DNA from: Sphingomonas sp. S2-65
GTDB lineage: Bacteria > Pseudomonadota > Alphaproteobacteria > Sphingomonadales > Sphingomonadaceae
Length of the DNA: 64,000 nucleotides
Direction: 5' to 3'
Assembly (NCBI RefSeq): GCF_021513175.1
Contig: NZ_CP090953.1
Span: forward strand, 3,406,501 to 3,470,500
Shown: positions 14,893 to 43,683 of the stretch, one piece after another
Layout of the letters: the number at the start of each line of letters is the position of its first letter
Position numbering within the stretch: position 1 is the first letter of the stretch
Notes under the pieces: model-generated
Databases searched by the model: none
Seen by the model: only the letters and a program-made list of their open reading frames with translations
What the model was told of the DNA's origin: nothing
Translations under genes and position numbers: made by a program

Positions 14893-17800
14893 TCAGAAGT
14901 TGATGGTGGTGCCGAACGCGATCTGACGGCCGAGCGAGTCGTACCGCGCAGAGATCGTGTTCGCCCGCGACAGGCCGATATCGTACGAGTTCGGCAGGAT
15001 CGGCGGGGTCTTGTCGAGGATGTTGTTTGCCGCGATCCGGAACGAGAAGCTCTTCTGGACGCGGAAGTTCAGCGACAAGTCGAAGTAGTCATACGCGCCG
15101 ATCCTGTAGAAGGTCTCGCGCTCGCCCGCCTGGGTCCAGCCGAGCGTCGGATCACCCGAGTTCGAGGTGCGCGTCAGCGGGCCCAGGTGGCGCCAGTTCA
15201 GCGAAGCGCTGAAGAACTGGTCCGACGTGGTGTAGGTGGTGCGCAGGTTGTGCGTCCACTTCGGGATGAACTGGCTGCAGCCAGCACCGCCGAAATAGCC
15301 CACGCAGTTGCGCTGGTTCAGGAACTCCGCGTCCTGCGCACCCGCCAGCGTGGTGAGCGAGCCCGCAAAGTCGAAGTCCAGCCGGCCGGCAGCGCCGAGC
15401 GGCAGGGCGTACTGACCCTGGAAGTCCCAACCATAGGACTTGCTCTGGTAATAGTTGGTCGTGCCCTGACGGATGAAGCCCGTTGCGGGATTGTCGCCCG
15501 GGGTGCTGAACAGCGTGCCGTTCGCATTGCGGACGAACATGCTGCAGAAGAACGGATCCGCCGTCTGCTGGCAGCCCTGCGAGAAGTAGCTGTAGTCGTT
15601 GTAGCCGATCGAATCGTCCAGATCGATCATGAAGCGATCGACCGACACGATCAGGCCGGGCAGGAAGCGCGGCTTGAGCACGACACCGAAGGTCTTGGTG
15701 TACGCGGTTTCCGGATCGGCGGTGAAGCCACCGGCGCGGTAGGTGCAGCCGACATCGGTCGGGCAGAGCAGGGTAGCGCTGCCGTAGAGATTGTCCGCCA
15801 GGCCGGTTGCCGCGCATGCCTCACGCGAAGCTGCCGGGGCGCCATAAACCGGAACCTGCTGGCCTGCCGCGTTGGTCGTGGTGCCGACGATGGCGGGAGC
15901 GCAGATGTCGTTATAGGCGGTGGTGATCCGGCCATAGCTGGTGTTCGAGGCCTGGAACGCCTCGACTACCGTCGGTGCGCGCTGGGCGCGGTTGATCGAG
16001 CCGCGGAAGGTGATGTCGGGGATCGGTGCCCAGATCGCCTCGGCCTTCCAGGTCGAGAAGGTGTTGGGGTTGCTGCTGTACTTGGACAGGCGGAACGCGC
16101 CGTTGACCTGGAGCAGGTCGGCGAACGGCTTGTGCTCGGCGATCGGGGCCTGGACCTCGACGTTTCCTTCCCAGACATGCTGCGACAGGTCGGAGTCGCT
16201 GCCGCCATTCTGCTCGCGCCAGTTGGCGTCGGCATAGCTCTTGAGCTGGTCCTCACGGAACTCGGCGCCGAACGCGATCGCCAGGCCCTGCTCGGCCCAG
16301 GGGCTCTGGATGCCATAGGTGCCCAGGTCGCCCTGAACGGTGGCGATGGCGTTATACAGCGTGTTGGTGGTCGTCGTGGTGCCGTAGGTACCCTCGAGCA
16401 GGTAATTGAACAGCGCGCTGTTGTTGGTCGCCGAATTGGCGCTGAACGGATCGAAGGGCACGCAGCCATTGGCCACGTCGTTGACGCAGCTGATCGTGCC
16501 GTTGTTGTTGACCGTGTTCAGCGCGTTGTTGACGCGATCCCAGTCCGGCGTTGCCCAGCTGGTGTCCATGCGGTTGCGCGCATAGACGCCGCCGACATCG
16601 TAGCTCCAGCCCTTGGCGAATTCGCCGCGGACGCCGCCGGTGATGCGCACGCCCTGGTTCAGGTAGCGATCTTCCTGGTCGGCGACGCCGGTGAAGCGAT
16701 AGCGCAGTTCGATCGGCACGAAGGTGGAGGTGCCGGCGGCACCGCCGCACACCGTCGCCGCCTGTGCGGCCGACAGGAACGGGTTGGCGCAGTTCAGCTG
16801 GTACGCACCCTGCGAGTAGTTGCTCGAGCTCAGCACGCGCGCCGGATAGAGGTTCACGGACTCGTCGCGGAACCACATCGCATTGGCATAGACTTCGGCG
16901 GCGTCCGAGATCTTGAACGAGGCGAAGCCGCCTGCATTCCAGCGCTCATCGGCGCGCTGGAACGAGTATCCGTCATACGGATTCTCGGCGACGGCATCCG
17001 AATAGGGCACGAACGTACGCGTGCCATTGGGATTGTTGACATAGGCGTTGCCCGAGCTGGGCCCCGTCCGCGGCGAGATGTAGCCGGTCTTGGTGTAGGT
17101 CGAAACCGTGCAGCTCAGCGGGCCGTCCTTGACCGTTTCGGTCAGCTGGCACCCCGAGGTTTCGCGCGCGCCGAAGGGGACGAGGTCCGCCTTGCGATAG
17201 TTGACGTAGCCCGAGACGTGGAAGCGGTCGTCGAACAGCTTCTTGCCGGCGGTCAGCGACAGGTCGACACGACCGCCGTCGAAGGCGTTGCCGGTGGTCG
17301 GCTGGCGGAAGCCATATTGGCTTGCCACCTGCGAGACGAGGCCCGCTTTGTTCTCGTGCGCGTAGAAGTTGTAGTTCGCGTTGGCCTGGATGCCCTCGAA
17401 ATCATTGTCGAGGATGAAGTTGACCACGCCGGCAACTGCGTCCGAACCGTAAACGGCCGAAGCGCCGCCGGTCAGCACGTCCACGCGCGAGATCAGCGCG
17501 GTCGGGATCATGTTGGCGTCGAGGCCGTTGACCGTGCCCAGGCGCTTGCCGTCGACCAGCACCAGCGTGCGCTCGAAACCGAGGTTACGCAGCTTGATGC
17601 GCTGGCGGCCGTCGGAATCCTGATAGTTCTGCTGGCTGTCGGGTGCGATCGACGGGATGCGGTTGAGCACTTCCTCGATGTTCACTGCTGCCTGGGCACG
17701 GATCGCTTCGGACGTCACCGAGGTGATCGGCGCTGCGGCGGCCACGTTCGGGCGGCTGATGCGCGAACCGGTGACGACGATCGCCTGGCCTTCGCCGCTC

Positions 17801-17937
17801 TGATCGTCGGTGTTCAGGTCGGCGGTGGCGGTGGTTTCGGCAACCGGGCCGCCGGTAGTGTTGGCTTCCTGCGACATCGCGGGGACTGCAAACATCGCCG
17901 CGAAACAGGTCGAACTCAGTAGAAGCGCGTTCTTCAT
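14893..17937 (-). CDS. TonB-dependent receptor of the N-glycan locus
   Basis: Predicted 1014-residue outer-membrane receptor, longer than the first one in this window and of the type common in polymer utilization loci of sphingomonads, caulobacters and xanthomonads. Signal peptide MKNALLLSSTCFAAMFAVPA, cleaved after AMSQ. The plug starts IVVTGSRISRPNV and includes RTLVLVDGKRLGTVNGLDAN and LTGGASAVYGSDAVAGVVNF. The barrel ends in GTTINF with a terminal aromatic. I chose the ATG at 17937 because GGGGGAAG lies just before it. It follows the asparaginase gene by 22 bases and ends at a strong terminator. Context argues for import of N-glycans or glycopeptides; the ligand itself is inferred. Confidence 0.88.
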   Translation of the reverse strand: MKNALLLSSTCFAAMFAVPAMSQEANTTGGPVAETTATADLNTDDQSGEGQAIVVTGSRISRPNVAAAAPITSVTSEAIRAQAAVNIEEVLNRIPSIAPDSQQNYQDSDGRQRIKLRNLGFERTLVLVDGKRLGTVNGLDANMIPTALISRVDVLTGGASAVYGSDAVAGVVNFILDNDFEGIQANANYNFYAHENKAGLVSQVASQYGFRQPTTGNAFDGGRVDLSLTAGKKLFDDRFHVSGYVNYRKADLVPFGARETSGCQLTETVKDGPLSCTVSTYTKTGYISPRTGPSSGNAYVNNPNGTRTFVPYSDAVAENPYDGYSFQRADERWNAGGFASFKISDAAEVYANAMWFRDESVNLYPARVLSSSNYSQGAYQLNCANPFLSAAQAATVCGGAAGTSTFVPIELRYRFTGVADQEDRYLNQGVRITGGVRGEFAKGWSYDVGGVYARNRMDTSWATPDWDRVNNALNTVNNNGTISCVNDVANGCVPFDPFSANSATNNSALFNYLLEGTYGTTTTTNTLYNAIATVQGDLGTYGIQSPWAEQGLAIAFGAEFREDQLKSYADANWREQNGGSDSDLSQHVWEGNVEVQAPIAEHKPFADLLQVNGAFRLSKYSSNPNTFSTWKAEAIWAPIPDITFRGSINRAQRAPTVVEAFQASNTSYGRITTAYNDICAPAIVGTTTNAAGQQVPVYGAPAASREACAATGLADNLYGSATLLCPTDVGCTYRAGGFTADPETAYTKTFGVVLKPRFLPGLIVSVDRFMIDLDDSIGYNDYSYFSQGCQQTADPFFCSMFVRNANGTLFSTPGDNPATGFIRQGTTNYYQSKSYGWDFQGQYALPLGAAGRLDFDFAGSLTTLAGAQDAEFLNQRNCVGYFGGAGCSQFIPKWTHNLRTTYTTSDQFFSASLNWRHLGPLTRTSNSGDPTLGWTQAGERETFYRIGAYDYFDLSLNFRVQKSFSFRIAANNILDKTPPILPNSYDIGLSRANTISARYDSLGRQIAFGTTINF

Positions 17938-17959
17938 TACTTCCCCCAATTGGGATGAC

Positions 17960-18982
17960 TTACTTGGTGTTGCCGTGCCCTTTTAGGCTTTCGGCGGCTC
18001 GGACTTGCGTGCTTCCCTGAAGGTCGGTCACGGCAAAGGTGAAGCCGGGCTGGAGCGCGAAGGCGCCCACTTCGCCGCGGCTGTTGATGGCCAGAAAGCC
18101 TACTTGCGCGTCGCGAATGGCGTCGCCGCGCAGCTTGGCGATGTGCAGCACGGCTTCGCGGCACGCGGCCTGGGGCGACATGCCGCCGCGCATCGACGAT
18201 ACGACACGTGCCGATCCGACAATGCGCGTGACTTCCTCGCCTACGCCGGTGGCAGTGGCGGCGCCCACGCCGGCCTCGACGAACAGGCCCGAGCCTGCCT
18301 GCGGCGAATCGCCGACGCGGCCGCGCAGCTTGAACGCCATGCCAGAGGTGGTGCACGCGCCGGCAAGCCGGCCGTCGGGGCCGCAGGCGACCATGCCGAT
18401 CGTGTCATGGTCCAGCGCCGATCCGCGGATGTTCTCGCTGTTCGCGACCGGCTTGTACTTGGCGGTCTTCAGCCATTCGCGCCACGCCTTTTCGGCTTCG
18501 GGCGTCAGCAGCTTGGTCTTTTCGAAACCCTGCTCGAGCGCGAACTGGTGCGCGCCTTCGCCGACCAGGAAGGTGTGCGGGGTCTTCTCCATCACGCGCC
18601 GCGCGACCGAGATCGGGTGCATGAAGTCTTCGAGCGCGGCGACCGCGCCGACATTGCCGCGGTCGTCCATGATGATCGCGTCGAGGGTCACATGGCCATC
18701 GCGGTCCGGATAGCCGGAATAGCCGACCGAGTGGTTCTCGGGGTCCGCTTCGGGAACCCAGGCGCCGACTTCGAGCGCGTCGACCAGGTTGCCGGTCTTC
18801 TTCCACTGGGCATAAGCGGCGGCATTCGCGGCGGCACCGAAATCCCAGGTCGAGACGATCAGCGCTCGTCCCTTGATCGGTGTGGAGGGCTTTGTCTGGG
18901 CTTGGGCGATAGTGGCAGTTGCACCGGCGGCGGCCGCTGCGCCGATCCCCAATGCCAATGCTCCGCGTCGAGACGTGTCCAT
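17960..18982 (-). CDS. N4-(beta-N-acetylglucosaminyl)-L-asparaginase (aspartylglucosaminidase)
   Basis: Predicted 340-residue Ntn-hydrolase that cleaves the GlcNAc-Asn bond, the last step in taking apart an N-glycan. The nucleophile is Thr194 in the self-cleavage motif DHDTIGMV (cut between Asp193 and Thr194). The later stretches CTTSGMAFKLRGRVGDSP and GSGLFVEAGVGAATATG are typical substrate-site segments of the family. MDTSRRGALALGIGAAAAAG is a twin-arginine signal, so the enzyme should act in the periplasm. The start ATG at 18982 has GAGG nine bases before it. It heads a two-gene unit with the TonB-dependent receptor 22 bases downstream. A relative, isoaspartyl peptidase, is less likely given the glycosidase neighbours. 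Confidence 0.9.
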   Translation of the reverse strand: MDTSRRGALALGIGAAAAAGATATIAQAQTKPSTPIKGRALIVSTWDFGAAANAAAYAQWKKTGNLVDALEVGAWVPEADPENHSVGYSGYPDRDGHVTLDAIIMDDRGNVGAVAALEDFMHPISVARRVMEKTPHTFLVGEGAHQFALEQGFEKTKLLTPEAEKAWREWLKTAKYKPVANSENIRGSALDHDTIGMVACGPDGRLAGACTTSGMAFKLRGRVGDSPQAGSGLFVEAGVGAATATGVGEEVTRIVGSARVVSSMRGGMSPQAACREAVLHIAKLRGDAIRDAQVGFLAINSRGEVGAFALQPGFTFAVTDLQGSTQVRAAESLKGHGNTK

Positions 18983-19249: not shown

Positions 19250-21163
19250 TCACTGCTTGGGCGTGAAGCCGCCAATGCCGGCGATCGCCAGGCGAGTGGC
19301 AGATACCGCTGTCTCTGCAAAGGTTATCCGCAGATAGCGTGATGTGCGAGCCCGGTCGAAGACGACGCGCTGGGTAGAGAGGGCATAGGCGATGTTGGAG
19401 AACTCGCCTTTGGCGGCCGGCTCCCAATGCATGCCATCGGCGCTGGTCTCCGCGTCATAGCCGCGGGGCGGCGCCGCACCGGTCATCACCTGGCGCGATG
19501 GCGTCAGGCTGAAACCGGCCAGTTGCGTGGCTGCCCCCAGGTCGACGACGACGCGGGCCGGCTTGCCCGGAGTGGGACTCGGCTGTGCCCAGATCGTGCC
19601 GGCTTCGTTGTCCAGCAGCTTCTCGGCCCCCGGCGCGCTCGCCTCGACGATGCGCCACTTGGTCACGTCGAGCACGGTCGGGTCGGTCGAGACGATCGCC
19701 GGCACCGGCACCGGCGCCACCGACTGGAACAGCGCGAACTCACTGATCGCCGGCGAGGCCGGCGCGGCGAGCACGCGCAGCCGCACCCGGCGCGGCGCGA
19801 TCGGCGCGGGCAGGCGGATGATCCGCTGCGCCGAGATGCACGCGTGTTCGGCCAGCGTCTGCCACTTGCCGCCGATCTCGGCATCTACCGCGAACCGCGT
19901 CACGCGCACGCCGAGCGGCAGATACTCGCGCAGCCGGATCACGTCGAAGCGGGTGCCGGGCTTGAGGTCGAGCGTCAGCGTCGGGTTCGCGACGCCATCG
20001 GGGCTGGCCCAATAGGTTTCGCGATTGCCGTCCAGCACGCGGGCGGGCGCGAAGCCTGCGCGGCTGTGGCTGGCGCTCGCCACTGCGCCCTTGGCGAGGT
20101 CGCGTGCGAAGGTCGCGCGGATCGCGTCGCCGAACGATTTGAGGATCTTGAAGTCCTGGTCCGGAATGCGGCCGCGACGGTCCGGGGGAATGTTCAGGTT
20201 CAGATTGGTGCCGCGCCCGACCGACTCGTCATACAGCCGGATCAGCCGCTCGGGGCTTTTGACCTTGGAGTCCTCGTCGGCGTGATAGAACCAGCCCGGC
20301 CGGATCGACACGTCGGTTTCCGCCGGCCACCAGATCGCGCCGCCGCGCACCCCGGCATTGCCGTTCTTCTGGTCATAGGGCTCGTCGGGCATCGTCGGCC
20401 AGCACGGATCGCCCGCCACGCCGTCCTCATTGCCCACCCAGCGGATGTCGGCGCCCAGCGGATCGAAGGTGCAGGCGTTCGGCTGCAGCTCGTGGACCAG
20501 CGCGACGATCGAGGGCCAGTTGTAATAGCGCGGCGCATCGATCTTCCGCGCCTCGCGCGCGCCGCCATAATAGCCGTCGCCGCCATTGGCGCCGTCGAAC
20601 CACACTTCGAACAGCTCGCCATAGCGGGTGCACAATTCGGTCAGCTGCGCGCGGTAATAGTCGACATAGGCCGGCCGGCCATAGTCGGCATGGTTGCGGT
20701 CCCAGGGCGAGAGGTACAGCCCGAACGGCAGCTTGGCGCGCTTGCACGCGTCGGCCATCTCGCGGACGATGTCGCCCTTGCCGCCTTTGTAGGGGCTGTT
20801 GCGGATGCAATGCTCGGTCAGCAGCGTCGGCCACAGGCAGAAGCCGTCATGATGCTTGGCAGTGAGGATCAGCCCGGTGAGCCCGCCAGCCTTCGCCGCG
20901 GCGACGATCTGGTCGGGGTCGAAGTCGCTGGGGTCGAACAGCTTGGGGCTCTCGTCGCCGAACCCCCATTCCTTGTCGGTGTAGGTGTTGATCGAGAAAT
21001 GGACGAACGCGTATTGCTCGCGCCCATGCCAGCGCCACTGGCGCGGGTGCGGCGTCGCGCCGAACGGCTTGGGGCCAGGCTCGGCGGCGAGCGCGGGGGC
21101 GGCGGGCAGGGCTGCGCCGGCCAGTCCGGTGGCGATCAGCGTGCGCCGGGAAAATGCAGTCAT
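19250..21163 (-). CDS. GH29 alpha-L-fucosidase with two discoidin-like domains
   Basis: Predicted 637-residue exported enzyme. MTAFSRRTLIATGLAGAALP is a Tat-type signal. The GH29 barrel covers about residues 40-350, with VHFSINTYTDKEWGFGDESP, LTAKHHDGFCLWPT and the nucleophile Asp190 in VWFDGANGG. Two beta-sandwich domains follow (about 375-500 and 520-635), each like F5/8 type C/CBM32 modules (VLDGNRETYWASP; LLDNEAGTIWAQP). The start follows GAGGATTTCG. The gene is last in the glycosidase operon, 14 bases after the GH92 gene. In this setting it would remove core or antennary fucose. The linkage (alpha-1,3/4 or 1,6) cannot be settled by eye. Confidence 0.9.
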   Translation of the reverse strand: MTAFSRRTLIATGLAGAALPAAPALAAEPGPKPFGATPHPRQWRWHGREQYAFVHFSINTYTDKEWGFGDESPKLFDPSDFDPDQIVAAAKAGGLTGLILTAKHHDGFCLWPTLLTEHCIRNSPYKGGKGDIVREMADACKRAKLPFGLYLSPWDRNHADYGRPAYVDYYRAQLTELCTRYGELFEVWFDGANGGDGYYGGAREARKIDAPRYYNWPSIVALVHELQPNACTFDPLGADIRWVGNEDGVAGDPCWPTMPDEPYDQKNGNAGVRGGAIWWPAETDVSIRPGWFYHADEDSKVKSPERLIRLYDESVGRGTNLNLNIPPDRRGRIPDQDFKILKSFGDAIRATFARDLAKGAVASASHSRAGFAPARVLDGNRETYWASPDGVANPTLTLDLKPGTRFDVIRLREYLPLGVRVTRFAVDAEIGGKWQTLAEHACISAQRIIRLPAPIAPRRVRLRVLAAPASPAISEFALFQSVAPVPVPAIVSTDPTVLDVTKWRIVEASAPGAEKLLDNEAGTIWAQPSPTPGKPARVVVDLGAATQLAGFSLTPSRQVMTGAAPPRGYDAETSADGMHWEPAAKGEFSNIAYALSTQRVVFDRARTSRYLRITFAETAVSATRLAIAGIGGFTPKQ

Positions 21164-21177: not shown

Positions 21178-23496
21178 TCAAGCGGGCGTATGGCCGAACG
21201 ACGGCGGCCGGTCGGCAAGCGCGCGGCCGAAGGCGCGGTTGGGCGTACGCGACATGGTGAAGCGCAGCGTGCCGCCCGCGGCGAGGTCGCGGTGCGAGAT
21301 CCAGCTCCTCGTCCATGGCTTCTCGTTCCAGGTCACCGCCGCGACATAGGGCGTGTCCGGCCCGTTCCCCGGCGCCTCGATCACCAGCTTCCTGGTGCCC
21401 AGCTTCAGCGTCGCGCGGGTGAACAGCGGCGATCCGAACACGTACGCCGCCTCCACCGGATCGACCGGATAGAAGCCCAGCGCCGAGAACACGAACCACG
21501 CGCTCATCTGCCCGCAATCGTCGTTGCCGATGATCCCGTCGGGGTCGTTCTTGTACATCTCGGTGCACAGCCGCCGCACCATCGCCTGCGTTTTCCACGC
21601 CGCCCCGGCATAGGCGTACAGGTAAGGCGCATGCTGGTCCGGCTCGTTGCCGTGCGCATATTGCCCCACCAGCCCCGAAATGTCGGGCGGCGCGTTGGCG
21701 GGCAGGGTGGAGGGCGCGGAGAACAGCGCGTCGAGCTTCGCCTCGAACTTCGCGTCGCCGCCCAGATGCGCGATCAGGCCATAGACGTCATGCTGGTTCA
21801 GGAACGTCGCCTGCCAGCCATTCGCCTCGGTATAGTCGCGCCAGTCGGGCTCGGGCATGTGCCCCAACTGGATCGGATCATAGTCCTTCCACCAGCGGCC
21901 ATCGGCGAACTTTGGCCGCGCAAAGCCGATGTTCGGGTCGATCACGTTGCGCCAATTGCCCGATCGCTTGCGCAGCCGCTCGGCGTCCGCCCCCGCGCCG
22001 GCCACCCGCGCCAGCCGCGCCGAGGCCCAGTCGTCATAGGCATATTCCTGCGTCCGGCTGACGCTCTCATTGACCTTGTCGGCCGGCACATAGCCCAGGC
22101 TGTCGTACAGCCTGCGCCCGCGGCTGTTCTCCAGGTCGCGCGCGCCGAAGTCGAAGCTGCGTTTGCGGATCGCCGGCCACGCCGCGGCATAATCGGCCGG
22201 TATCCCCTTGGCCTGCGCCTCGGCGATCGGCACCACCCCGTGCCAGCCGATCATCGTCCCGGTCTCCTTGCCCTGGAGCGGCCACACCAGCGGCCCGAAC
22301 GGCGACTGCGCGGTCTGGCGGATCAGGTCGTCGACCAGCAGCTTGGTCCGCTCGGGCGCCACCAGGGTCAGCAGCGGGTGCACCGCGCGATAGGTGTCCC
22401 ACAGCGAATAGCTGCTGAACGCCGCGCCCTCGGCGGGAACCGCCCGCACCGTGCCGTCGAGCGCGGGGTAGCGGCCATCCACATCCGAAACCAGCGTCGG
22501 CGCCACCTGCGCATGGTACAGCGCCGAGGACAGGATGGTCCGCTGATCCGCGGTCCCCCCTTCGACCTGCACCGCGCCCAGCGCCGCCTTCCACCGCGCC
22601 GAAGCCGCCCCGCGCACCCGGTCGAAGTCCCAATGCCGCGCCTCGGCGTCCAGGTTCGCCCGCGCGCCCGCGGCATCCACTGCCGAGATCCCGCACCGCA
22701 CCACCACCGGCGCCGCCCCGGCATCGTCATAATGCAGCACCGCCTTCAGCCGCTTGCCCGCCGCCCGCGTCGACCCGGCGGGCAGCGCGACATCGCCATC
22801 GCCGACCAGCGTCACTCGGTCCGGCTTGCGCGACAGCTGCATCGCGAAAAAGATCCGCCGTCCCTTGGCCCAGCGGAACACCCGCCGCGTGCCGGTCAGC
22901 GTGCCATCGGCCTCCAGCGCCAGCAGCGCCTCGTCGATCAGCGGCCGCGATCCCGCCCGCTCGAGCACCAGGTGCGACAAGTCGATCAGCAGATGCCCCG
23001 CGCCCTTGGGGAAGCGGTAGCGATGCCACCCCGTCCGCTCGGTCACGGTCAGCTCGGCCTGCACCCCGGTCTCCAGCGCCACCCGGTAATAGCCCGGCTC
23101 GGCATGCTCGCCCGAAAAGCGCTGGCGATACCCCGCGTCGGGGTCTTCCAGCGTGCCGGGCTGCAACTGCACCGGCCCGGCCGAAGGCACCACCAGCACG
23201 TCGAGCATGTCGCCGATCCCAGTGCCCGACAGATGCGTGTGCGAGAACCCCAGGATCGACGTGTCGGTGCGGTAATAGCCCGAGCACGTCTCCCACCTTT
23301 CCACCCCGGTATCGGGGCTCAGCTGCACCATCCCGAACGGCACGGTCGCGCCGGGATAGGTGTGCCCGGTCCCACCCGTGCCGATGAACAGATTGGGTGC
23401 CGCACCCGCCTGCCGCGCCCGCGCGCTGGCCGGCAGGGCAGAGGCAGCGAGCCCGAACGCGCTCGAGGCGAGAAGTTGACGGCGTGTAGGAGTCAC
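21178..23496 (-). CDS. GH92 alpha-mannosidase
   Basis: Predicted 772-residue exported exo-alpha-mannosidase of the calcium-dependent, inverting GH92 family, which trims alpha-1,2 and other mannose links from N-glycans. The signal is [20 protein letters not shown]. Family stretches include [31 protein letters not shown], and near the C-terminus [20 protein letters not shown]. The GTG start at 23496 overlaps the stop of the GH125 gene as GTGA. The usual length of the family is 700-780 residues, so it looks complete. It sits between GH125 and GH29 genes in one transcript. Confidence 0.93.
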
Positions 23497-24914
23497 AGGG
23501 TTTCCGCCAGCAGCTTGGGCCGAGTGTCGGCCAGGTGGACGATCAGCTCGCCGAACAGGCCATTGGCCCAGGCGAACCATTCGCGGGTGAACTTGCTCGG
23601 ATCATCATGGTCGACCGCTTCGTGAATGAAGCCCGTCCCGCCATCGCTGTCGCGGATCATGCGCAGGCATTGCCGGATCGTCGCGTCGTCGCTCGACGAC
23701 AATGCCCGCATCACCAGCGACATCGGCCACACCTGGCCCAGCCCGACATGCGGCCCGCCAATCCCCTCGACCACGCGCCCGCGCGACCAATAGGGATTGT
23801 GCTCGCTCCACGCCGCCGCGGCGGTGCGCTGGAAAAGCGGATCGCTCGCCGGCAGGCACCCCAGATAGGCCAGCGCCGAAAGCGACGGCACATTGGCGTC
23901 GTCCATGAAGATCGCGTTGCCATAGCCGTCGACTTCGAACGGGATGACCTCGCTGCCATCGGGCAGCCGCATCCGCGCGTACTTGCGCAGCGCCGCGTCC
24001 ACTTCGTCGGCGAGCGCCACTGCGTCCGCCGCCAGCGCCGCATCGCCACGCGCGGCGTCCGCCACCACCGCCAGCTCGCGCAACGCGGTCACTGCGAAGT
24101 AATTGGACGGAATCAGGAACGGATACACGCACGCGTCGTCCGAAGGGCGGAAGCCCGAATGGATCAGCCCCACCGGCCGTGTCGGCGCGCCATAGCCGTC
24201 GAGCATCAGCGATTCGCCGGGGATGTTGCTCTTGCGCTGGAAGCGATACGGCCCCTTGCCGTCCTTCCGCTGCTGCTCGCGGAACGTCGCGATGCTCAGC
24301 CGCGCGGCTTGTGCCCAGCGCACGTCGAATGGCGTCTTGTCACGCGTCGCCTGCCAATAGCCATGCGCCAGCCGCATCGGATAGCATAGCGAATCCACTT
24401 CCCACTTCCGCTCGGCAACGCCCGGCTTGAGCGGGAAGCGGTCGTCCAGCGACCAGCTCAGATTGGTCTTGGCGGTCGGGTCCTCCATGAACGCGTTGGC
24501 GTACGGATCGATCAGGATCGACCGCGACTGGCGCGCGATCAGCCCGTGGTAGAGCCGCCGCAGATCGGCGTCCCCCTTGGCCAGATGCAGATACGGCTTC
24601 ACCTGCGCCGAGCTGTCGCGCAGCCACAGCGCGTTGATGTCGCCGGTCCGCACGAACGCGTCGGGCGCGCCGTCGATCGTCCGCATCGCCACGGTGGTGT
24701 CCAGTGTGTTGGGATAGCAATTCCCGAACATCCAGCGCAGCTTGGGATCGCCGATCTTCAGCGACACCCGCACGATCTCGCGCTCGACCGACTTGCTGAC
24801 GAACTTGCGCGCGCTAGGCTCCGGGCGGTTGCTGGCGAACGCGGTCGTCTGCGCAAAGGCGGGCGCTGCGGCGAGCGCGAGCCCGGCGCCCATGATCCCA
24901 CGGCGGTCTATCAC
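23493..24914 (-). CDS. GH125 exo-alpha-1,6-mannosidase
   Basis: Predicted 473-residue metal-independent inverting exo-mannosidase (alpha-1,6 preferred). A short export signal ([20 protein letters not shown], cut after AQ) precedes the (alpha/alpha)6 barrel. The conserved [14 protein letters not shown] lies at residues 91-104, with further family stretches [20 protein letters not shown] and [20 protein letters not shown]. The GTG start at 24914 overlaps the GH3 stop by four bases (GTGA), and its own stop overlaps the GH92 start. It would act on the alpha-1,6 branch left after GH92 trimming. Confidence 0.92.
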
Positions 24915-36420: not shown

Positions 36421-38142
36421 TTATCCGGTCAGCACGGCGTTCATGGTGCCGGGAGGCAGCAGCAGGTGAACCAGCCCGTTGCCGGGACGGGCCACCGAGC
36501 GGACACCTAGCGCCGTCAGCGCCGTCTCGACGGCCTTGGCGGGATCGTTCAGTTCCACGCGCACGCGCGATCCGTATACGCTTACGCCGCAGACATTGTC
36601 CGCCCCACCCAGCGCGCTCAGCGCCTCCGGAGTGAGCGCTGCGCTGGAGGCCGAGAGCGCCGTCGGCGTTGCCGCCGCTGTCACGGCCAACTGCCCACCA
36701 CCCGCTGCCAACGCGTCGCGAATTTCCACCGCCACTGAGTCCGCGATGGGGCCCAGCACCACCTGCAGCGCATGCGCAGAAGGCTTGATGATCCCGCGCG
36801 CACCCAGCGCCTTGAGCGCCGCCTCGTCGACCTTCGCCTGGTCGGCGACCATCAGCCGCAGCCGAGTGGTGCAGGCGTTGACGCTCGTCAGGTTGGCCGC
36901 GCCGCCAAGTGCCCGGGCAAAGGCTGCGCCGCGTTCACCGGCGGTCACCGCCGCCGCCACTGGGACCGCCGCTTCGGGCTCGCGGCCGGGAGTCTGCAAG
37001 TTGAAGCGCCGGATGACGAAGCTGAAGATGCCGTAATACAGCGCGAAATAGACCGCGCCGACAGGCAGCAGCAGCAGCGGCCGGGTGGCCTTGCCGAAGT
37101 TCAGAACATAGTCGAACAGCCCCGCCGAGAAGCCGAAGCCAAGCTTCACGCCCAGCAGGTCCATCAGCACCATCGCCACGCCGGTCAGCACCGCATGCAC
37201 GGCGTAGAGCGCCGGCGCCAGGAACATGAAGCTGAATTCGATCGGCTCGGTCACCCCGGTGAGCATCGACGTGAGCGCCAGGCTGAACAGCAGTCCGCCT
37301 ACTGCCTTGCGCCGTTCGGGCAGCGCCGACCGGTACATGGCCAGGCACGCGGCGGGCAGGCCGAACATCATCACCGGGAAAAAACCTGCCATGAAGCTTC
37401 CCGCAGTAGGATCACCGGCGAAGAAGCGGCGAAGGTCGCCACCGACGCCGTGGAAGTCGCCTTGCACGAACCAGAACACGTTGTTCAGGATGTGATGAAG
37501 GCCGGTGACCAACAGCAGCCGGTTGAGCAGGCCGAACAGGAACAGGCCCAGGCTGCCCGAACCCGCGATACCGCGGCCAAGCCCGTCGATCCCGGCGCTC
37601 AGGTGCGAGAAGCCGAGCCCGAAGATCAGCGCCAGTGCGACCCCGGCAAGACCACTGACGATCGGCACGAAGCGGCGACCGCCGAAAAACGCCAGATATT
37701 CGGGGAGCTTGATCGTTGAAAAACGATTGTAGAAGGTGCCGCCGATCAGTCCCGACAGGATGCCGATCGGCACGTCGAGCCGCGAGATCGCCTTGGCCTT
37801 CCACGCTGCGACGGTGATGTCGAGGGTGGGTCCGCTCAGTCCGGCGCCGATGTCGGCGGGCACGGTCATCAGCACCTTGGCGGATTCAGTCGCGACCAGG
37901 AAGCAGACGATGCCTGCCAGGGGGGCGGCACCGTTGCCGTCCTTGGCATAGCCCGTGGCGACACCGATCGCGAACAACAGGCCCAGGTGAGAGAACAGCG
38001 CGTCACCGGCGGCGCTCAGAAAGGCGATGTCGAGCAGATCGGGCTGACCCAGCCGCAGCAACAGGCCTGCGACCGGCAGTACGGCGATCGGCAGCATCAG
38101 GGCACGGCCCAGCGGCTGCAGCAGTTCCAGGATCGACTTCAT
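36421..38142 (-). CDS. nagE: PTS GlcNAc-type EIIBC component
   Basis: Predicted 573-residue inner-membrane sugar phosphotransferase permease of the glucose/GlcNAc family. The EIIC part (residues 1-385) has about ten hydrophobic segments and GLHHILNNVFW and TGVTEPIEFSFMF, typical of the sugar site. EIIB follows with phospho-acceptor Cys424 in SVNACTTRLRL. A second EIIB-like copy (about 503-573) has Tyr523 where the cysteine should be, so it cannot carry phosphate. There is no EIIA; that is supplied by the fusion protein encoded just upstream. Its ATG overlaps that gene's stop as ATGA. GlcNAc is inferred from the neighbouring nag genes. Confidence 0.88.
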   Translation of the reverse strand: MKSILELLQPLGRALMLPIAVLPVAGLLLRLGQPDLLDIAFLSAAGDALFSHLGLLFAIGVATGYAKDGNGAAPLAGIVCFLVATESAKVLMTVPADIGAGLSGPTLDITVAAWKAKAISRLDVPIGILSGLIGGTFYNRFSTIKLPEYLAFFGGRRFVPIVSGLAGVALALIFGLGFSHLSAGIDGLGRGIAGSGSLGLFLFGLLNRLLLVTGLHHILNNVFWFVQGDFHGVGGDLRRFFAGDPTAGSFMAGFFPVMMFGLPAACLAMYRSALPERRKAVGGLLFSLALTSMLTGVTEPIEFSFMFLAPALYAVHAVLTGVAMVLMDLLGVKLGFGFSAGLFDYVLNFGKATRPLLLLPVGAVYFALYYGIFSFVIRRFNLQTPGREPEAAVPVAAAVTAGERGAAFARALGGAANLTSVNACTTRLRLMVADQAKVDEAALKALGARGIIKPSAHALQVVLGPIADSVAVEIRDALAAGGGQLAVTAAATPTALSASSAALTPEALSALGGADNVCGVSVYGSRVRVELNDPAKAVETALTALGVRSVARPGNGLVHLLLPPGTMNAVLTG

Positions 38143-40682
38143 GCGGTGAACTCCCGGGCAAGCGAGCGGACATCGGCTGCGGTCGCGCAGCCGAGCGCGG
38201 CAGCGGCATGGGAGCGGACCGCTTCGCGCGTCAGGCTCGATACCAGCGCCTTGATGTCGGGAACGATCGCTGGCGTCGCGGACAGTTCGGTGACGCCCAG
38301 GCCCAGCAGGATCGGCACGGCGAGTGGATCCGATGCCAGCCCGCCGCACACACCGATCCACCGGCCATGGGCCCGCGCGCCGCGGCATGTGTCGGCGATC
38401 AGCCGCAGCACCGCCGGGTGCAGCCCATCGACGGCACTCGCCACCGCCGCGTTTCCGCGGTCCATGGCGAGGGTGTACTGAGTAAGATCGTTGGTCCCGA
38501 TCGACAGGAAATCGGCTTCTGCCGCCAGCAGGTCCGCCGTGGCCGCCGCGGCAGGCGTTTCCACCATCACTCCCAGCTCGATCCGCCCGATGATGCCCAG
38601 TTCGACGCGGATCCGCTCCAGCACCGTCCGTACCTGGCGCAGTTCGTCGACGCCTGCGATCATCGGCACCATGATCCGGCATTGACCGACCGGCTGGACC
38701 TGCAGGATCGCGCGGATCTGGTCTTCCAGCAGCTGCGGATGCGCAAAGCCGACGCGGATGCCGCGCAGGCCGAGCGCCGGGTTTTCCTCCGCTGCGATCG
38801 GCAGATAGGGCGCTGGCTTGTCGCCGCCGATATCGAGCAGGCGGACGATCAGCGGGCGACCGTCCAACGTGTCGGCGATCGCCTGATAGTCGGCGGTCTG
38901 TTCGTCGACGCTCGGCGCGGTATCGCGGTCGAGGAACAGGAACTCGGTGCGCAGCAACCCCGAGCCTTCGGCCCCGTTGGCGACGGCCAGCTCGGCATCT
39001 GTGCGTGATCCGAGATTGGCGAACACTTCGATCCGCGTGCCGTCGGCCATGTGGCAGGGATTGGCTGCGGTCGCTTTGGCGGCAGCGCGGCGCGCGGCGC
39101 GTTCCGCGACGGTCGCGGTCGCCTGCGCGAGTGCCGCGTCATCGGGGCCGACATGCAACTGACCCAGTCCGGCATCCAGTACCAGCGCAGTCTCGTCGTC
39201 GATCTGGCGTAACACTGGCCCCAGCGCGACCAGCATCGGGAGCCCCATGCTAGCGGCGAGGATCGCAACGTGCGAGGTCGGCCCCCCACGCTCGACACAC
39301 AGGCCCAGAACATTCGCCGGATCGATCGCCATTAGTTGCGAGGGCAGCAGGTCCTCGGCGATCAGGATCGTTCCGGCCGGCAACGCTAGCGGCGCTTCCT
39401 CACGTCCGGCGAGGATCAGCAGCACGCGCCGTTCCAGATCGCGCAAATCGTCGGCGCGCTCAGCCAGCCGGGCATCGCCCGCAGCCCGCAGCGCCTCCGC
39501 CTGCGGCCGGATCGCCGCGCGCCAGGCCTCGACCGCGCTCGCGCCGCCGCCAATCGCTTCCGCCGCGGCGGCGAGCAGCCCGGCATCGTCCAGCATCGCG
39601 CGATGCGCTTCGACGATCGCCCGCTGTGCGCCGCTACTATGCGCCACCTCGGCGTCCAGCCGCGCCGCCAGCGTAGCCCGTGCGGCGTCGAGCCGTGCCT
39701 GCGCATCGGCGGCGTCCTCGCGCACGGGATGTACCTCGACATCCGGCAGCACGAAACGGCGCGCGTGGCCGACCGCGAGCCCCGGCGACGCGGTCACCCC
39801 GGCAAGCTTGCCGTCGGCCGGAAGCGTGGTCGCTGCGATCGCCGGTGCCGCGCTGGTTTGTACGGGAGCAGGCGCATGGCCCTTTTCGCCCATGCCGCTC
39901 TCGATCAGCGCCGCCAGCGCGGCCACCGCTTCCTCGGCCTGCAGCCCCTCTGCGGCGATGGTGATCGTATCGCCGAAACCGATCGCCAGCGTGAGCAGCC
40001 CCACCGGGCTCCGCACGTCGGCGCTACGGCCCCCCTTGCGCAGGGTGATGTCGGCGGACAGCCCGGCGACGGCATCGCGAAGCCGCGCGGCCGGGCGGGC
40101 ATGGATGCCGTGCGCCAGCGGGACGACGACGATCCGCTCGGCGCGTTCACCTGCTGCCTGCGCCACTGCGCGCGGCGCATCGGCAACCCGGCGCGGCCGC
40201 AACGCGAAGATGTCGTCGCCCGCCGTCACTGCCCCGTCCTCGCGGGTGCGCACCAGCGCATAGCCCGGCGTTTCCAGCAGCAGCACCGGCGTGATCACTG
40301 CGGGCGCCGCGCACACCACCGCGTCCAGGTCGAAGCGGATCAGCGGATCGCCCTTGCGCACTCGGTCGCCCACCGCGACGCACGGGGCGAAGCCCTCGCC
40401 GTTCAACGCGACGGTATCCAGGCCGATGTGCATCAGGATCTGCGCGCCCTCGGCCGCGATGATCGTCACTGCATGGCCGCTCGGCTGGAGCACGCTCACT
40501 TCGCCGTCGCATGGCGCGACCAGGCAGCCCTCGGTCGGGTCGATCGCCACTCCGTCGCCCAGCATGCGCTGCGCGAAGACCGGATCGGCCACTTCGTCCA
40601 GCCCCGAGAGCCAGCCGGTGAGGGGCGCGCCGATGGCGATGCTCGCCCCGGCATTGTCGTCGTTGGGAAGCGGCGAAATCAT
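38139..40682 (-). CDS. nagF: Fused PTS EIIA-HPr-Enzyme I
   Basis: Predicted 847-residue cytoplasmic phosphotransferase fusion carrying phosphate from PEP to the EIIBC permease. EIIA-Glc domain: residues 15-160, with His70 and active His85 in LMHIGLDTVALNGEGF. HPr: 182-265, with His194 in AHGIHARPAARL. Enzyme I: 290-847, with His471 in ERGGPTSHVAILA and C-terminal SIGTNDLTQYTLAMDRGN and GVCGGLASDP. This three-part fusion is the form found in GlcNAc loci of several proteobacteria. It starts 27 bases after nagA and is coupled to the permease gene by a 4-base overlap. All three phospho-histidines are present. Confidence 0.92.
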   Translation of the reverse strand: MISPLPNDDNAGASIAIGAPLTGWLSGLDEVADPVFAQRMLGDGVAIDPTEGCLVAPCDGEVSVLQPSGHAVTIIAAEGAQILMHIGLDTVALNGEGFAPCVAVGDRVRKGDPLIRFDLDAVVCAAPAVITPVLLLETPGYALVRTREDGAVTAGDDIFALRPRRVADAPRAVAQAAGERAERIVVVPLAHGIHARPAARLRDAVAGLSADITLRKGGRSADVRSPVGLLTLAIGFGDTITIAAEGLQAEEAVAALAALIESGMGEKGHAPAPVQTSAAPAIAATTLPADGKLAGVTASPGLAVGHARRFVLPDVEVHPVREDAADAQARLDAARATLAARLDAEVAHSSGAQRAIVEAHRAMLDDAGLLAAAAEAIGGGASAVEAWRAAIRPQAEALRAAGDARLAERADDLRDLERRVLLILAGREEAPLALPAGTILIAEDLLPSQLMAIDPANVLGLCVERGGPTSHVAILAASMGLPMLVALGPVLRQIDDETALVLDAGLGQLHVGPDDAALAQATATVAERAARRAAAKATAANPCHMADGTRIEVFANLGSRTDAELAVANGAEGSGLLRTEFLFLDRDTAPSVDEQTADYQAIADTLDGRPLIVRLLDIGGDKPAPYLPIAAEENPALGLRGIRVGFAHPQLLEDQIRAILQVQPVGQCRIMVPMIAGVDELRQVRTVLERIRVELGIIGRIELGVMVETPAAAATADLLAAEADFLSIGTNDLTQYTLAMDRGNAAVASAVDGLHPAVLRLIADTCRGARAHGRWIGVCGGLASDPLAVPILLGLGVTELSATPAIVPDIKALVSSLTREAVRSHAAAALGCATAADVRSLAREFTA

Positions 40683-40709: not shown

Positions 40710-41840
40710 TCAGGCGGTACGGATGCCGGCGATCCAGGTGCCGGCGGGCTGCAGATCGCGCGTCAGTTGAACCCAGTCGGCGGTCAGGCCGGGTGCCAGC
40801 GCGCCGCGCTCGCCACGCAGGCCCAGGAACGCGGCGGGGCTGGTCGCGGCCATCGCGGCGGCGTCGGCGTGCGACAGCCCGATCCGCGTCACGGCATTGC
40901 GGAACGCGCCGGCCATGTCGAGCGACGATCCGGCCAGCGTCCCGTCCTCGCCCAGGCAGCGCCCGCCCTCGACCAGGATGCGCCGGCCGTGCAAGTCGAA
41001 CTCGGCGACATCGGCGCCCACGCTCGGCATCGCGTCGGTGACGAGCAAGAACCGGTCGTGCGGCCGCGCGCGCACCGCGATGCGCACCGCCGCGTCATGG
41101 ACGTGGAAGCCGTCCAGGATCAGCCCGCAATAGATCGCCTGGTCCTCGATCGCCGCGCCGACCACGCCGGGCGCGCGGTGCAGCAGCGGCGACATCGCGT
41201 TGAACAGGTGCGTGACCCCGGTCATCCCCGCGGCGATCGCCGCCTTGGCGGTGTCGTAATCGGCGTCGCTGTGGCCGATGCTCAGGATCACTCCTGCGGC
41301 GTGCAGCCGGCGGATATCCTCGAGCGACACCATTTCGGGCGCCAGCGTCAGCATCACCTTGCCCCGGCGCGGCCGTGTCAGCAGCGCCAGGAGATCCTCG
41401 TCTAGCCGGCGAAATTTCTCCGGGTCGTGGATGCCCTTGCGGGTCACGCTGATGATCGGCCCCTCGATGTGCACGCCGATGCACCCCGCAACGCCCGCCT
41501 CGATCGCGGCGTCGGTAGCGTCGAGCGCGCGTGCGATCACCTCGGGCGAATCGCTGATCAGCGTCGGCAGGAAGCCGGTGGTGCCATAGCGCGCATGCGC
41601 CCGGCCGATGGCGTCGATGCCCTCGACCGTCGGCGCGTCGTTGAACAACACCCCGCCGCCGCCATTGACCTGGGTGTCGATGAAGCCCGGGACGAGCCAG
41701 CCGCCATCCAGGTCGACCGTCTCGAACGAAGTCTGGTCGTCGATGGCGGCGATGCGGCCGCCCTCTACGGCGATGGTGGCATTCGCCAGAACGCTGGCGG
41801 GCGTGACGACATGCCCGTTGGTAAAGCGGATCGCGGTCAT
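40710..41840 (-). CDS. nagA: N-acetylglucosamine-6-phosphate deacetylase
   Basis: Predicted 376-residue amidohydrolase that removes acetate from GlcNAc-6-phosphate after PTS uptake. The metal and catalytic residues are visible as Glu126 (VHIEGPIIS), His190 (SIGHSDADY), His211 (THLFNAMSP) and Asp269 (VTDAMPSVG). The binding loop DTQVNGGGGV is intact. Its ATG overlaps the stop of the SIS-domain gene as ATGA, so both are translated together. Product glucosamine-6-phosphate would go to that deaminase. Length is normal for the family. Confidence 0.93.
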   Translation of the reverse strand: MTAIRFTNGHVVTPASVLANATIAVEGGRIAAIDDQTSFETVDLDGGWLVPGFIDTQVNGGGGVLFNDAPTVEGIDAIGRAHARYGTTGFLPTLISDSPEVIARALDATDAAIEAGVAGCIGVHIEGPIISVTRKGIHDPEKFRRLDEDLLALLTRPRRGKVMLTLAPEMVSLEDIRRLHAAGVILSIGHSDADYDTAKAAIAAGMTGVTHLFNAMSPLLHRAPGVVGAAIEDQAIYCGLILDGFHVHDAAVRIAVRARPHDRFLLVTDAMPSVGADVAEFDLHGRRILVEGGRCLGEDGTLAGSSLDMAGAFRNAVTRIGLSHADAAAMAATSPAAFLGLRGERGALAPGLTADWVQLTRDLQPAGTWIAGIRTA

Positions 41841-42886
41841 CGCGTTTCGGTGACCTTCTTTAGGTAAAGTGGCCGGTCGGGATCATGCCCGCGCGACACG
41901 GACAGCGCATTGGCCATGTGGTAGAAGCTCTGCACCATCAGGATCGGCTCGATCGCCGGATGGGCGCGCAACGCCGGCAGGGTGGCAGTCGACCCGCCCC
42001 GGGCATCGGCCAGGCACACCCGCGCGCCGCGCTCGGCGAACTCGGCCGCCGCCTCGCGCACGCTGTCCCCCGCGGCGTCGGAAGTCGCGAACGCCAGCAC
42101 CGGAAAGCCCTCGCCGACGATCGCCATCGGCCCGTGCCGGACTTCGGCGGCGCTGAACGCCTCGGCGTGCAATCCGCAGGTTTCCTTGAACTTCAGCGCG
42201 GCTTCCTGGGCGATGCCGAAGCTGTAGCCGCGCCCGATCACGAACAGGTTGGTCGCATCCTGCAGCACCCGCACCGCGTCGCTCCAGTCGATCGCGCCGG
42301 CTTGTTCGAGCTGCGCGGGCAGTTCCGCCAGCGCAGTGCGCAGGGCGTCATCGTCGGCCCATTCCGCCACCAGCGCCACGAACGCAGCCAGCGAGGCGAT
42401 ATAGGATTTGGTCGCCGCCACCGATCGCTCGGGTCCGGCCTTCAGCCCGATGCAGGTGTCGGCCAGCGCCGCCAGCGGCGATTCCTCGTCGTTGACGAAC
42501 GCGACGACCTGCGCGCCGGCTTCCTGATGTGCCTTGACGGTGGCGAGCAGGTCGGGGCTGCGCCCGCTCTGCGAGATCGCGATGCACAGCGCGTTGCCCG
42601 TGGCCACCGGCGCCGCGAACACCGACGCCGTCGAAGGCGCCGCCGAGGCGACCGGAATGCCGATCAGCGTCTCGATCAAATACTTGCCATAGCTCGCCGC
42701 ATGGTCGGACGAACCCCGCGCGCAGGTGACGATCCGCGCGGGCGGGTCGCTGCGCAGCTTGGCCGCCAGCGCCTTGAGCGCCGGCTCGTTCGCTTGCGTC
42801 AGCCGACGTACCACTTCGGCAGCCTCCGCCGCCTCGCTCTTCATCAGCGTCGCGCCCTCTGCGACCGCCTGCTGCTCAGCCCCCAT
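41837..42886 (-). CDS. SIS-domain glucosamine-6-phosphate deaminase (NagB-II type)
   Basis: Predicted 349-residue protein with two SIS domains (about 40-170 and 200-330), like the isomerase half of GlmS but without the glutaminase part. Sugar-phosphate motifs are CARGSSDHAASYGKYLIE, AISQSGRSPDLL and EVRHGPMAIV. This is the NagB-II form that turns glucosamine-6-phosphate into fructose-6-phosphate and ammonia in proteobacteria lacking classical NagB. First gene of the nagB-nagA-nagF-nagE unit. The ATG at 42886 has only a weak binding site; an in-frame ATG at 42844 with GAGGGCG before it is a possible alternative. A fructosamine deglycase is the main alternative function. Confidence 0.87.
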   Translation of the reverse strand: MGAEQQAVAEGATLMKSEAAEAAEVVRRLTQANEPALKALAAKLRSDPPARIVTCARGSSDHAASYGKYLIETLIGIPVASAAPSTASVFAAPVATGNALCIAISQSGRSPDLLATVKAHQEAGAQVVAFVNDEESPLAALADTCIGLKAGPERSVAATKSYIASLAAFVALVAEWADDDALRTALAELPAQLEQAGAIDWSDAVRVLQDATNLFVIGRGYSFGIAQEAALKFKETCGLHAEAFSAAEVRHGPMAIVGEGFPVLAFATSDAAGDSVREAAAEFAERGARVCLADARGGSTATLPALRAHPAIEPILMVQSFYHMANALSVSRGHDPDRPLYLKKVTETR

Positions 42887-42924
42887 CGCCCCGTTCTTTC
42901 GTTCCGTGTTGTACGATGGGTAAG

Positions 42925-43683
42925 TTATATATTGGTACTGTTCAAGGTCCTATGAGCGTCCAAATACGCCCGCAACACCGCGACCTTGCCGGCATCGGTA
43001 CGAAGCGTGGGGCCGCTCTGGAAGCCGAAGCGTTGCTCCGCCTCGCTCGCGTCGCCGTCCGGGCCGCGGCAGGAGGCATGCACTTCGGGTACTCCGGTGC
43101 TCAGGATTGCAGGAAGCGTCGCCGCATCGACGCCACTACCCGCCAGGATGAGGATGCGTCCGTCCGCGCGTTGCACCAGCGATGCCAGCGTTCCCAATGC
43201 GTCCACGGCGCGGGGTTGCCCGCCGGAGGTGAGGATCCTCTCGAAGCCCAGGTCGATGGCAATGTCCAACGCATCGATCAGGTCGGGGCAGAGGTCGAAA
43301 GCGCGATGCAGCGTAAGTGACAGCGGCCGGCCGCGCTTTTCGCCCTCGGCCCGCGCCAGTGCCACCCAGTCCTTGAGCAACCCGCCGTCGAGCTTCCCGT
43401 CGGGGTCGCTCGCGCCGATCACCACGCCGGCAAGCCCCGCCTCGGCGGTCGCTCGAATGTCCTCGGCGACCAGCGCGGCCTCCGCAGCGCCATAGCGGAA
43501 ATTGCCGTCGCGCGGACGCGCCAACAGGTGCGCGGGGAGGGGCGCCGCCGCGGCATATCGGATCAGCGACTGCGGCGGCGTCAGCCCGCCCAGGGCAAGC
43601 GCGGAACAAAGCTCGATCCGATCGGCGCCACCGGCAATCGCCGCGTCGATCCCCGCCGTGGTCTCCACGCAAATTTCCAGCAT
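42925..43683 (-). CDS. cutC: CutC-family protein
   Basis: Predicted 252-residue TIM-barrel protein of the CutC family. It starts MLEICVETTAGIDAAIAGGA and has the family stretches RIELCSALALGGLTPP, LTLHRAFDLC and ILTSGGQPRAVDALGTL. CutC was named for copper homeostasis in E. coli, but that role is disputed and the fold looks like an enzyme. Here it sits directly upstream of the nag-PTS operon (38 bases) with its own ATTGGTA half-sites before it, which points to amino-sugar or glycan metabolism. No signal peptide. The reaction is unknown. Confidence 0.9.
   Translation of the reverse strand: MLEICVETTAGIDAAIAGGADRIELCSALALGGLTPPQSLIRYAAAAPLPAHLLARPRDGNFRYGAAEAALVAEDIRATAEAGLAGVVIGASDPDGKLDGGLLKDWVALARAEGEKRGRPLSLTLHRAFDLCPDLIDALDIAIDLGFERILTSGGQPRAVDALGTLASLVQRADGRILILAGSGVDAATLPAILSTGVPEVHASCRGPDGDASEAEQRFGFQSGPTLRTDAGKVAVLRAYLDAHRTLNSTNI
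42929..42938. promoter_or_regulatory. Candidate GntR half-site before the nag-PTS operon
   Basis: The plus strand reads ATATTGGTAC; the minus strand reads GTACCAATAT followed by ATAAC, so it borders a possible -10 box (TATAAC) about 30 bases before the SIS-domain gene. It falls inside the last codons of cutC. The word is shared with the other sugar promoters. Confidence 0.45.

Follow-up and report, generated by a model that had tools for sequence, protein, structure and literature searches.

A compact candidate locus for N-glycan and N-acetylglucosamine utilization in Sphingomonas sp. S2-65, with CutC as a putative pathway enzyme

The locus described here occupies positions 14893 to 43683 of a 64,000-nucleotide stretch (the window) of Sphingomonas sp. 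S2-65, whose genome is a single contig of 3.80 Mb on which the window falls, and it resembles described systems for N-glycans and N-acetylglucosamine (GlcNAc). The nag cluster of Caulobacter encodes a phosphotransferase system (PTS). Organized as nagRFE-nagABDC, this cluster shares with our locus GlcNAc genes and a GntR-family regulator (NagR), but the passage of PMC13055268 dealing with it mentions neither N-glycan enzymes nor CutC. According to the relevant parts of PMC5700972, Xanthomonas has nine hydrolase genes (nixD-L) for N-glycan bonds along with a TonB receptor, GlcNAc catabolism under the GntR regulator NagQ (see also PMC13055268), and an asparaginase, XAC3092, described as related to N-glycan catalysis. 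Published GlcNAc regulons under NagC, NagQ (of the GntR family) and NagR have a core of nagA, nagB and PTS genes (PMC5343134, in excerpt). For B. massiliensis, the sections of Crouch et al. (2022; PMC9522356) concerned give the order PNGase, glycoside hydrolase (GH) family 29, GH2 galactosidase, GH20, GH92, GH3 xylosidase and GH29, and this pathway leaves Man-alpha-1,6-Man-beta-1,4-GlcNAc2.

We consider it probable, at roughly 0.78, that the window holds a Sphingomonas N-glycan utilization locus suited to plant-type complex glycans, with CutC included as a pathway enzyme, and that it represents an unusually compact form of a known kind of system. A first-pass annotation, made from the DNA letters, had mostly come to the same view, and all genes it named were recovered with Pfam, including the TonB receptor, the GH families, the PTS, NagA, the SIS protein and CutC. 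The 15 genes form three transcription units (Table 1), whose borders were drawn by strand and intergenic distance; about 270 bases separate the glycosylasparaginase (AGA) gene from the one before it. Unit 1 runs on the minus strand from 32438 downward and contains GH20, GH2 beta-mannosidase, GH3, GH125, GH92, GH29, AGA and the TonB-dependent receptor. Unit 2, on the plus strand, consists of a GntR/UTRA regulator and the GH2 galactosidase GalA, and unit 3, from 43683 downward on the minus strand, of CutC, NagB-II, NagA, EIIA-HPr-EI and EIICB.

With Xanthomonas the locus has in common the TonB receptor, N-glycan hydrolases, GntR-controlled GlcNAc genes and an asparaginase. As described in the passages named above, however, nix and nag are two clusters there and GlcNAc enters through the non-PTS transporter NagP, followed by separate kinases, whereas here everything is joined in one locus with a PTS; NixF, said to cut between the two GlcNAc residues and GH18-like by our own reading, has no counterpart. 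The built-in asparaginase had been proposed as a sphingomonad trait, and AGA is indeed part of the locus, but XAC3092 shows that an asparaginase beside an N-glycan cluster is not particular to sphingomonads. The likeness to B. massiliensis, as far as the sections cited describe it, lies in the families of the GH92 alpha-1,3-mannosidase, GH3 beta-xylosidase, GH29, GH2 beta-1,3-galactosidase and GH20. That pathway has a PNGase as its first step and is encoded at several loci, whereas no PNGase family was seen at our locus; the window has one GH29, a GH125 and a GH2 mannosidase that would take the last mannoses, and AGA as the putative last step.

At the family level, the exo-glycosidases of the locus cover the antennae, core xylose and fucose, alpha-mannose and beta-mannose. 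The nearest solved structures are the plant N-glycan alpha-1,3-mannosidase 7ZGM for GH92, the beta-mannosidase 6bye for the mannosidase-type GH2 (E = 2.4e-266), 8ayr for GH29 (E=1.7e-153), hexosaminidases for GH20 and beta-xylosidases for GH3 (7vc7, a xylan 1,4-beta-xylosidase; the best NCBIfam model, Xyl3A, scored under its cut-off). Some of the PDB chains matched by GH125 are named exo-alpha-1,6-mannosidase, and GalA reached 1113 bits with NF041462 (cut-off 900). The asparaginase gene is, by its sequence, of the glycosylasparaginase type, as had been annotated: it scores 338 bits with the glycosylasparaginase 3ljq compared with at most 105 bits with isoaspartyl peptidases, the chain 1ayy_B aligns from query residue 199, and the first Thr of the beta-chain, characteristic of this Ntn enzyme, is present. 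An enzyme predicted to free the glycan or the last GlcNAc from Asn is encoded at the locus, and the TonB-dependent receptor, predicted to take up glycopeptides or glycans, lies in the same unit as AGA and the six exo-glycosidases. GH18 and GH85 gave no match in the genome, in searches whose controls matched in 6/14 and 1/14 cases, respectively, which argues against chitin and against release by endoglycosidases.

The glycosidase unit might instead be directed at fungal alpha-mannan, plant beta-mannan or xylan, the GlcNAc unit being a mere neighbour for GlcNAc from cell walls or chitin. GH92 and GH125 are indeed found in fungal mannan systems (PMC10154615, in part). Relatives of GH2 and GH3 likewise include mannan and xylan enzymes, and the genome has a second cluster with a NAGidase (GH84 type), GH92, GH125, GH92, GH43 and a TonB receptor. 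We nevertheless regard this explanation as quite unlikely, since no endo-mannanase family occurs among the locus genes (Pfam), GH18 is without a match in the genome, GlcNAc and glycosidase genes stand together in nine relatives, and we know of no role of GH20 or glycosylasparaginase in mannan or xylan breakdown. The GH92 and GH125 of the second cluster share 65% and 61% identity with their window counterparts, and this cluster is possibly for high-mannose or fungal glycans.

The choice among N-glycans is less clear-cut. A locus for insect, animal or high-mannose N-glycans would employ the same families, and the PNGase of the B. massiliensis plant system also accepts insect glycans, according to a section of PMC9522356. 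The mid-operon GH3 of beta-xylosidase type fits plant beta-1,2-xylose, and the relatives include isolates labelled Leaf339, Leaf230 and Leaf208 as well as S. phyllosphaerae; we therefore hold this second alternative to be rather improbable, though less so than the first. Several points count against the plant-type reading. The 7ZGM match of GH92 is nearly tied with 6f8z, and among the three residues named for the +1 mannose in the 7ZGM paper, as mapped here from sequence letters, His and Glu align conserved and Ser is replaced by Pro. In the genome searches for PNGase (PF09113) and GH19 no control matched, which makes both uninformative and leaves room for glycan release by a PNGase and for a GH19 chitinase; among the locus genes, Pfam finds no PNGase family. 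Substrate specificity is predicted from sequence and induction is putative, and besides plant glycans, insect or high-mannose ones could be the targets. On balance, the enzyme set, the solved-structure matches, the GH18 and GH85 results and the gene order in the genus speak for the N-glycan and GlcNAc part of the first-pass annotation, its specificity part being at the level of sequence.

We posit the following order of steps. The TonB receptor would bring glycopeptides across the outer membrane, and in the periplasm GH29 would remove fucose, GalA antennal galactose and GH20 antennal GlcNAc, followed by GH92 for alpha-1,3-mannose, GH3 for beta-1,2-xylose and GH125 for alpha-1,6-mannose. The GH2 beta-mannosidase could then act on the core beta-mannose, and GH20 would release the outer GlcNAc of chitobiose, upon which glycosylasparaginase would split GlcNAc-Asn into aspartate and 1-amino-GlcNAc or GlcNAc. 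Both this order and the removal of antennal fucose by the lone GH29 are inferences. Read by eye, signal peptides of the RR type (Tat-like) are present in GH125, GH92, GH29, AGA and GalA, and Sec-like ones in GH20, GH2, GH3 and the TonB receptor; the nag enzymes and CutC have none. GlcNAc would be imported as GlcNAc-6-P by the locus's own PTS (EIIA-HPr-EI plus EIICB) and converted by NagA and then NagB-II to fructose-6-P under control of the GntR regulator. CutC, presumably cytoplasmic, may act on GlcNAc or on GlcNAc-6-P/GlcN-6-P, most likely at C1, either by opening the glycosylamine that the asparaginase produces or by exchanging anomers for a kinase or the PTS and NagB. Nearly the entire N-glycan pathway would be gathered at a single site, among its reactions those for alpha-1,6-mannose and beta-mannose and a final asparaginase step, which would make it a useful enzyme toolbox.

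The gene order is conserved within the genus. Eighteen CutC-bearing relatives were found among 60 searched, with extended stretches for 14 of them (one, G054, misplaced; none for G001, G004, G016 and G020). Nine of the 18, all of the same genus, keep GH20-GH2-GH3-GH125-GH92-GH29 adjoining the nag/CutC genes (G002, G008, G017, G018, G022, G023, G024, G031, G034), in line with the first-pass suggestion that the order be sought in other sphingomonads, and two further relatives (G029, G032) have GH2-GH3-GH125-GH92 in this position. GH92 and GH29 are separated in G002 and G023 by about 2.2 kb without a match to a window gene, with AGA placed after GH29 just as it is in the window. Six relatives (G009, G018, G020, G022, G024, G031) have AGA and a TonB receptor beside CutC instead, the receptors being 54-58% identical to that of the window.

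The GlcNAc arm is well matched by NCBIfam models: EIICB to PTS-II-BC-nag (TIGR01998; 631.9, cut-off 553.2), NagA to TIGR00221 (297.9, cut-off 225.65) and EIIA-HPr-EI to TIGR01417 (412, cut-off 341.7), the SIS protein having NagB-II (NF046059) as its best model at 331.6, under the cut-off of 430. No NCBIfam model scored over cut-off for the GntR regulator, which has relatives of 76-87% identity in comparable loci. These genes match the core of the published NagC, NagQ and NagR regulons, and that of the NagQ regulon is present as a GntR-family regulator, nagA, nagB and a GlcNAc transporter. The proposed completeness down to fructose-6-phosphate holds only for GlcNAc; for mannose, galactose, fucose and xylose, no such route was seen among the locus genes. 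As a regulatory site, the half-site ATACCA is suggestive: it occurs four times in three stretches (629 bp in total) where about 0.12 are expected, for a motif chosen after looking. The palindrome TGGT-N6-ACCA was discarded as an operator (8 found, 9.88 expected, no excess over chance). Palindromes in common were sought twice, across 17 and 26 intergenic stretches, with mostly GC-rich or near-relative matches and none that convinced; the best, a GC-rich one in 5/26 stretches compared with 2-3 in simple shuffles, is not trusted to be bound by a regulator. At its C-terminus (36421-36700), EIICB seems, by eye, to have a second, degenerate EIIB domain with its active-site Cys replaced.

CutC, the first gene of the nag operon, is the most informative gene of the locus and the one that most deserves further work; it had been listed in the first reading without comment. 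Among 19 loci of relatives, it adjoins nagB-II and nagA, or is separated from them by a single gene, in 16 and lies near a true AGA (68-76% identity) in 8, one or the other applying to 18. G001 carries two CutC copies (L026, L121), each fused in frame to NagB-II (one joining stretch was read), and CutC and NagB-II domains share one protein in 14 protein clusters of a Sphingomonas lineage. The fusion of 3-hexulose-6-phosphate synthase and isomerase (HPS-PHI) shows 16% identity and has other chemistry, and it serves as an analogy only. No CutC-asparaginase fusion appeared in a single fusion search, whose query, an S. dokdonensis protein, biased it to its kin. Further afield, among 80 named CutC loci, which are best matches rather than a random sample and partly repeat genomes of the 19 loci, NagA occurred in 27, NagB-II in 25, an AGA-family gene in 17 (12 at >=62% identity, 5 at 31-33%) and GH20 in 12 (11 at 33-39%). 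A gene for a ROK-family kinase directly precedes CutC in 8/9 ORFs tested from Rhizobiales, Kozakia groups nagA, ROK, CutC, GH20 and nagB, and pSymB of S. meliloti has ROK-CutC, an IS element and then nagA-SIS-GntR-nagK. Two plasmids of Hymenobacter carry AGA and CutC genes with a 4-bp overlap, close to a GH92. In another family (L025), an Asparaginase_2 gene found in the vicinity of CutC had 29% identity and was thus not counted as AGA.

The coupling was also seen in a survey of 397 Pseudomonadota genomes that had not been chosen for the CutC question. CutC was present in 78 of them and true AGA in 20, the line for the latter (>300 bits) having been set after the gap to the next score, 166.6 bits, was seen; the match in G441 crosses one stop. 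CutC occurred in 15/20 true-AGA genomes and in 63/377 others (p = 5.2e-8), and with our own genus left out in 12/17 true-AGA genomes (p = 3.2e-6). In 11 of the 15 genomes having both, the match ends lay at most 300 bp apart (nine on the same strand), and in G183 about 2 kb apart. Around 77 CutC genes (+/-8 kb, or less where a contig ended; the window itself excluded), a GlcNAc or N-glycan gene was found in 29 stretches, compared with 1/40 control stretches of those contigs that lay 100-200 kb away from CutC; on matched contigs the counts were 15/40 and 1/40 (p = 6e-5). The 29 linked stretches contained AGA (12), a kinase (15), NagA and NagB-II (5) or glycosidases only (4).

Some of these data speak against a part for CutC in the pathway. 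CutC and AGA are unlinked in G332 and G241, and in the window they lie 24 kb apart. Five of the 20 AGA genomes, all of genus g37, lack CutC, so a genome can have AGA without it. Three of the 29 linked loci (L195, L199, L203) rest only on a GH2 of 34-36% identity about 6 kb off, and at 48 of the 77 CutC loci, chiefly those of f57 and f61 (all rows of both) and of genus g44, no tested gene was found within 8 kb. In P. distasonis CutC adjoins the ATP synthase operon, and a fold as common as the TIM barrel shows no function.

The linkage might also reflect a mobile block of co-inherited genes with CutC outside the pathway. In the CutC tree, the plasmid-borne Hymenobacter CutC groups with Pseudomonadota rows of f54 and f75, so that AGA and CutC were probably transferred together, and neighbour labels were clustered beyond all 500 shuffles, as inherited gene order would give. 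Against such an origin, which we consider improbable, the partners vary by lineage (NagB-II/NagA, AGA, ROK or BadF kinase, GH20) and yet all belong to one pathway, and the fusion recurs in 14 protein clusters. The AGA label, moreover, changes nine times on the tree, at least six of these changes being forced by well-supported branches, and the NAG label at least six times; two AGA rows (L235, L237) are long branches of unsure placement.

CutC gave a whole-length match to PF03932, a TIM-barrel fold, with near-invariant residues at the strand ends of the barrel. E3, R22, E24, R56, H126, R127, D130, G154 and H202 show 99-100% conservation across 103 rows. The fold comparison named no enzyme family among those compared, a set from which one may be missing. 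If CutC were the copper protein of its annotation, its place in the operon would be due to chance or to copper homeostasis. The family annotation (the copper homeostasis model PRK11572, at 142.5 bits under its cut-off of 311) and the presence of both C5 and C26 in the window protein agree with this, the two being counterparts of the cysteines put forward as copper ligands of human CutC. Of the 103 rows, however, 12 have another residue in place of C5 or C26 while the nine residues above are kept, and eight of the 12 belong to a 10-row AGA/GH-linked clade of f54, f75 and two Hymenobacter rows, the latter keeping both cysteines. The copper sensitivity of the E. coli cutC mutant is, moreover, reported to be entirely due to the small RNA MicL (PMC6538781, in part), which leaves the protein without a firm function. 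Together with the linkage and fusion to amino-sugar genes, this makes a copper role very unlikely in our view.

We infer that CutC is an amino-sugar or amino-sugar-phosphate enzyme, its reaction being putative. More tentatively, at somewhat less than even odds, the whole family from bacteria to humans may consist of amino-sugar enzymes, phosphosugar TIM barrels acting at C1 of GlcNAc or GlcNAc-6-P (glycosylamine opening or anomer exchange) together with glycosylasparaginase, GlcNAc kinase or NagB-II. The fusion and the repeated coupling to glycosylasparaginase and GlcNAc enzymes point CutC to a pathway and to candidate substrates and make its job directly testable. A literature search, outside which many subscription papers and all preprints fell, found no report of CutC with glycosylasparaginase or with asparaginase and hexosaminidase. 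One paper, on an aphid symbiont genome, names CutC together with nagA and nagB. An association with N-glycans is already hinted at in print, as a passage of PMC5700972 gives predicted links of Xanthomonas VirK to CutC, nixI and an asparaginase.

Table 1. Features of the locus and of related regions (window coordinates unless a locus is named).
Feature	Position	Strand	Basis or remark
TonB-dependent receptor (Plug + beta-barrel), unit 1 last gene	14893..17937 (start corrected)	-	Pfam
Glycosylasparaginase (aspartylglucosaminidase, Asparaginase_2), RR-type signal peptide	17960..18982 (start corrected)	-	Pfam, PDB match
GH29 alpha-L-fucosidase, F5/8-type C domains, RR-type signal peptide	19250..21163 (start corrected)	-	Pfam, PDB match
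GH92 alpha-mannosidase	21178..23496 (start corrected)	-	closest solved structure 7ZGM, near tie 6f8z
GH125 exo-alpha-mannosidase (alpha-1,6 by family)	23493..24914 (start corrected)	-	Pfam, PDB match
GH3 with PA14, beta-xylosidase type	24911..27472	-	Pfam, PDB match 7vc7
GH2 beta-mannosidase	27469..30108 (start corrected)	-	Pfam, PDB match 6bye
GH20 beta-N-acetylhexosaminidase, unit 1 first gene	30105..32438 (start corrected)	-	Pfam, PDB match
Divergent intergenic region GH20/GntR	32439..32687		one ATACCA half-site at 32584 (suggestive only)
GntR/UTRA (HutC-type) regulator, NagQ/NagR-like by position	32688..33425 (start corrected)	+	Pfam
GH2 beta-galactosidase GalA, RR-type signal peptide	33490..36387 (start corrected)	+	NCBIfam NF041462
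PTS EIICB, N-acetylglucosamine type, unit 3 last gene	36421..38142 (start corrected)	-	TIGR01998
Fused PTS EIIA-HPr-EI	38139..40682	-	Pfam, TIGR01417
NagA, GlcNAc-6-phosphate deacetylase	40710..41840	-	TIGR00221
NagB-II type glucosamine-6-phosphate deaminase, two SIS stretches	41837..42886	-	Pfam, NF046059, PDB match
CutC-family TIM barrel, unit 3 first gene	42925..43683	-	Pfam, PDB match
Second mannosidase cluster	L292:10083-12044 and 13588-19735, L293:732-4914		G000:C1 ~591-605 kb
GH20-like gene upstream of CutC	L105:7228-9965		similar spacing in L084, L090, L092, L099, L103, L112, L117

Other surroundings of CutC were also recorded. A further type of CutC operon, in Rhizobiales and relatives, has a GH20-like gene (34-39%) about 3-4 kb upstream of CutC, and in L105 an M81 (MlrC-type) peptidase and an MFS transporter lie between the two. 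On an Asticcacaulis plasmid (L127:6389-9630), CutC stands between a gene of the tryptophan halogenase family and a BadF-type ATPase, with a TonB receptor, GH2 and GH3 beside this region. Three single metagenomic protein clusters (P0015-P0017) join CutC to SDR, acyltransferase or GNAT domains and could be assembly errors. Directly past the locus in the window, an RND efflux operon (HlyD-type, AcrB-type and outer membrane factor genes) occupies 44265-50353 on the other strand.

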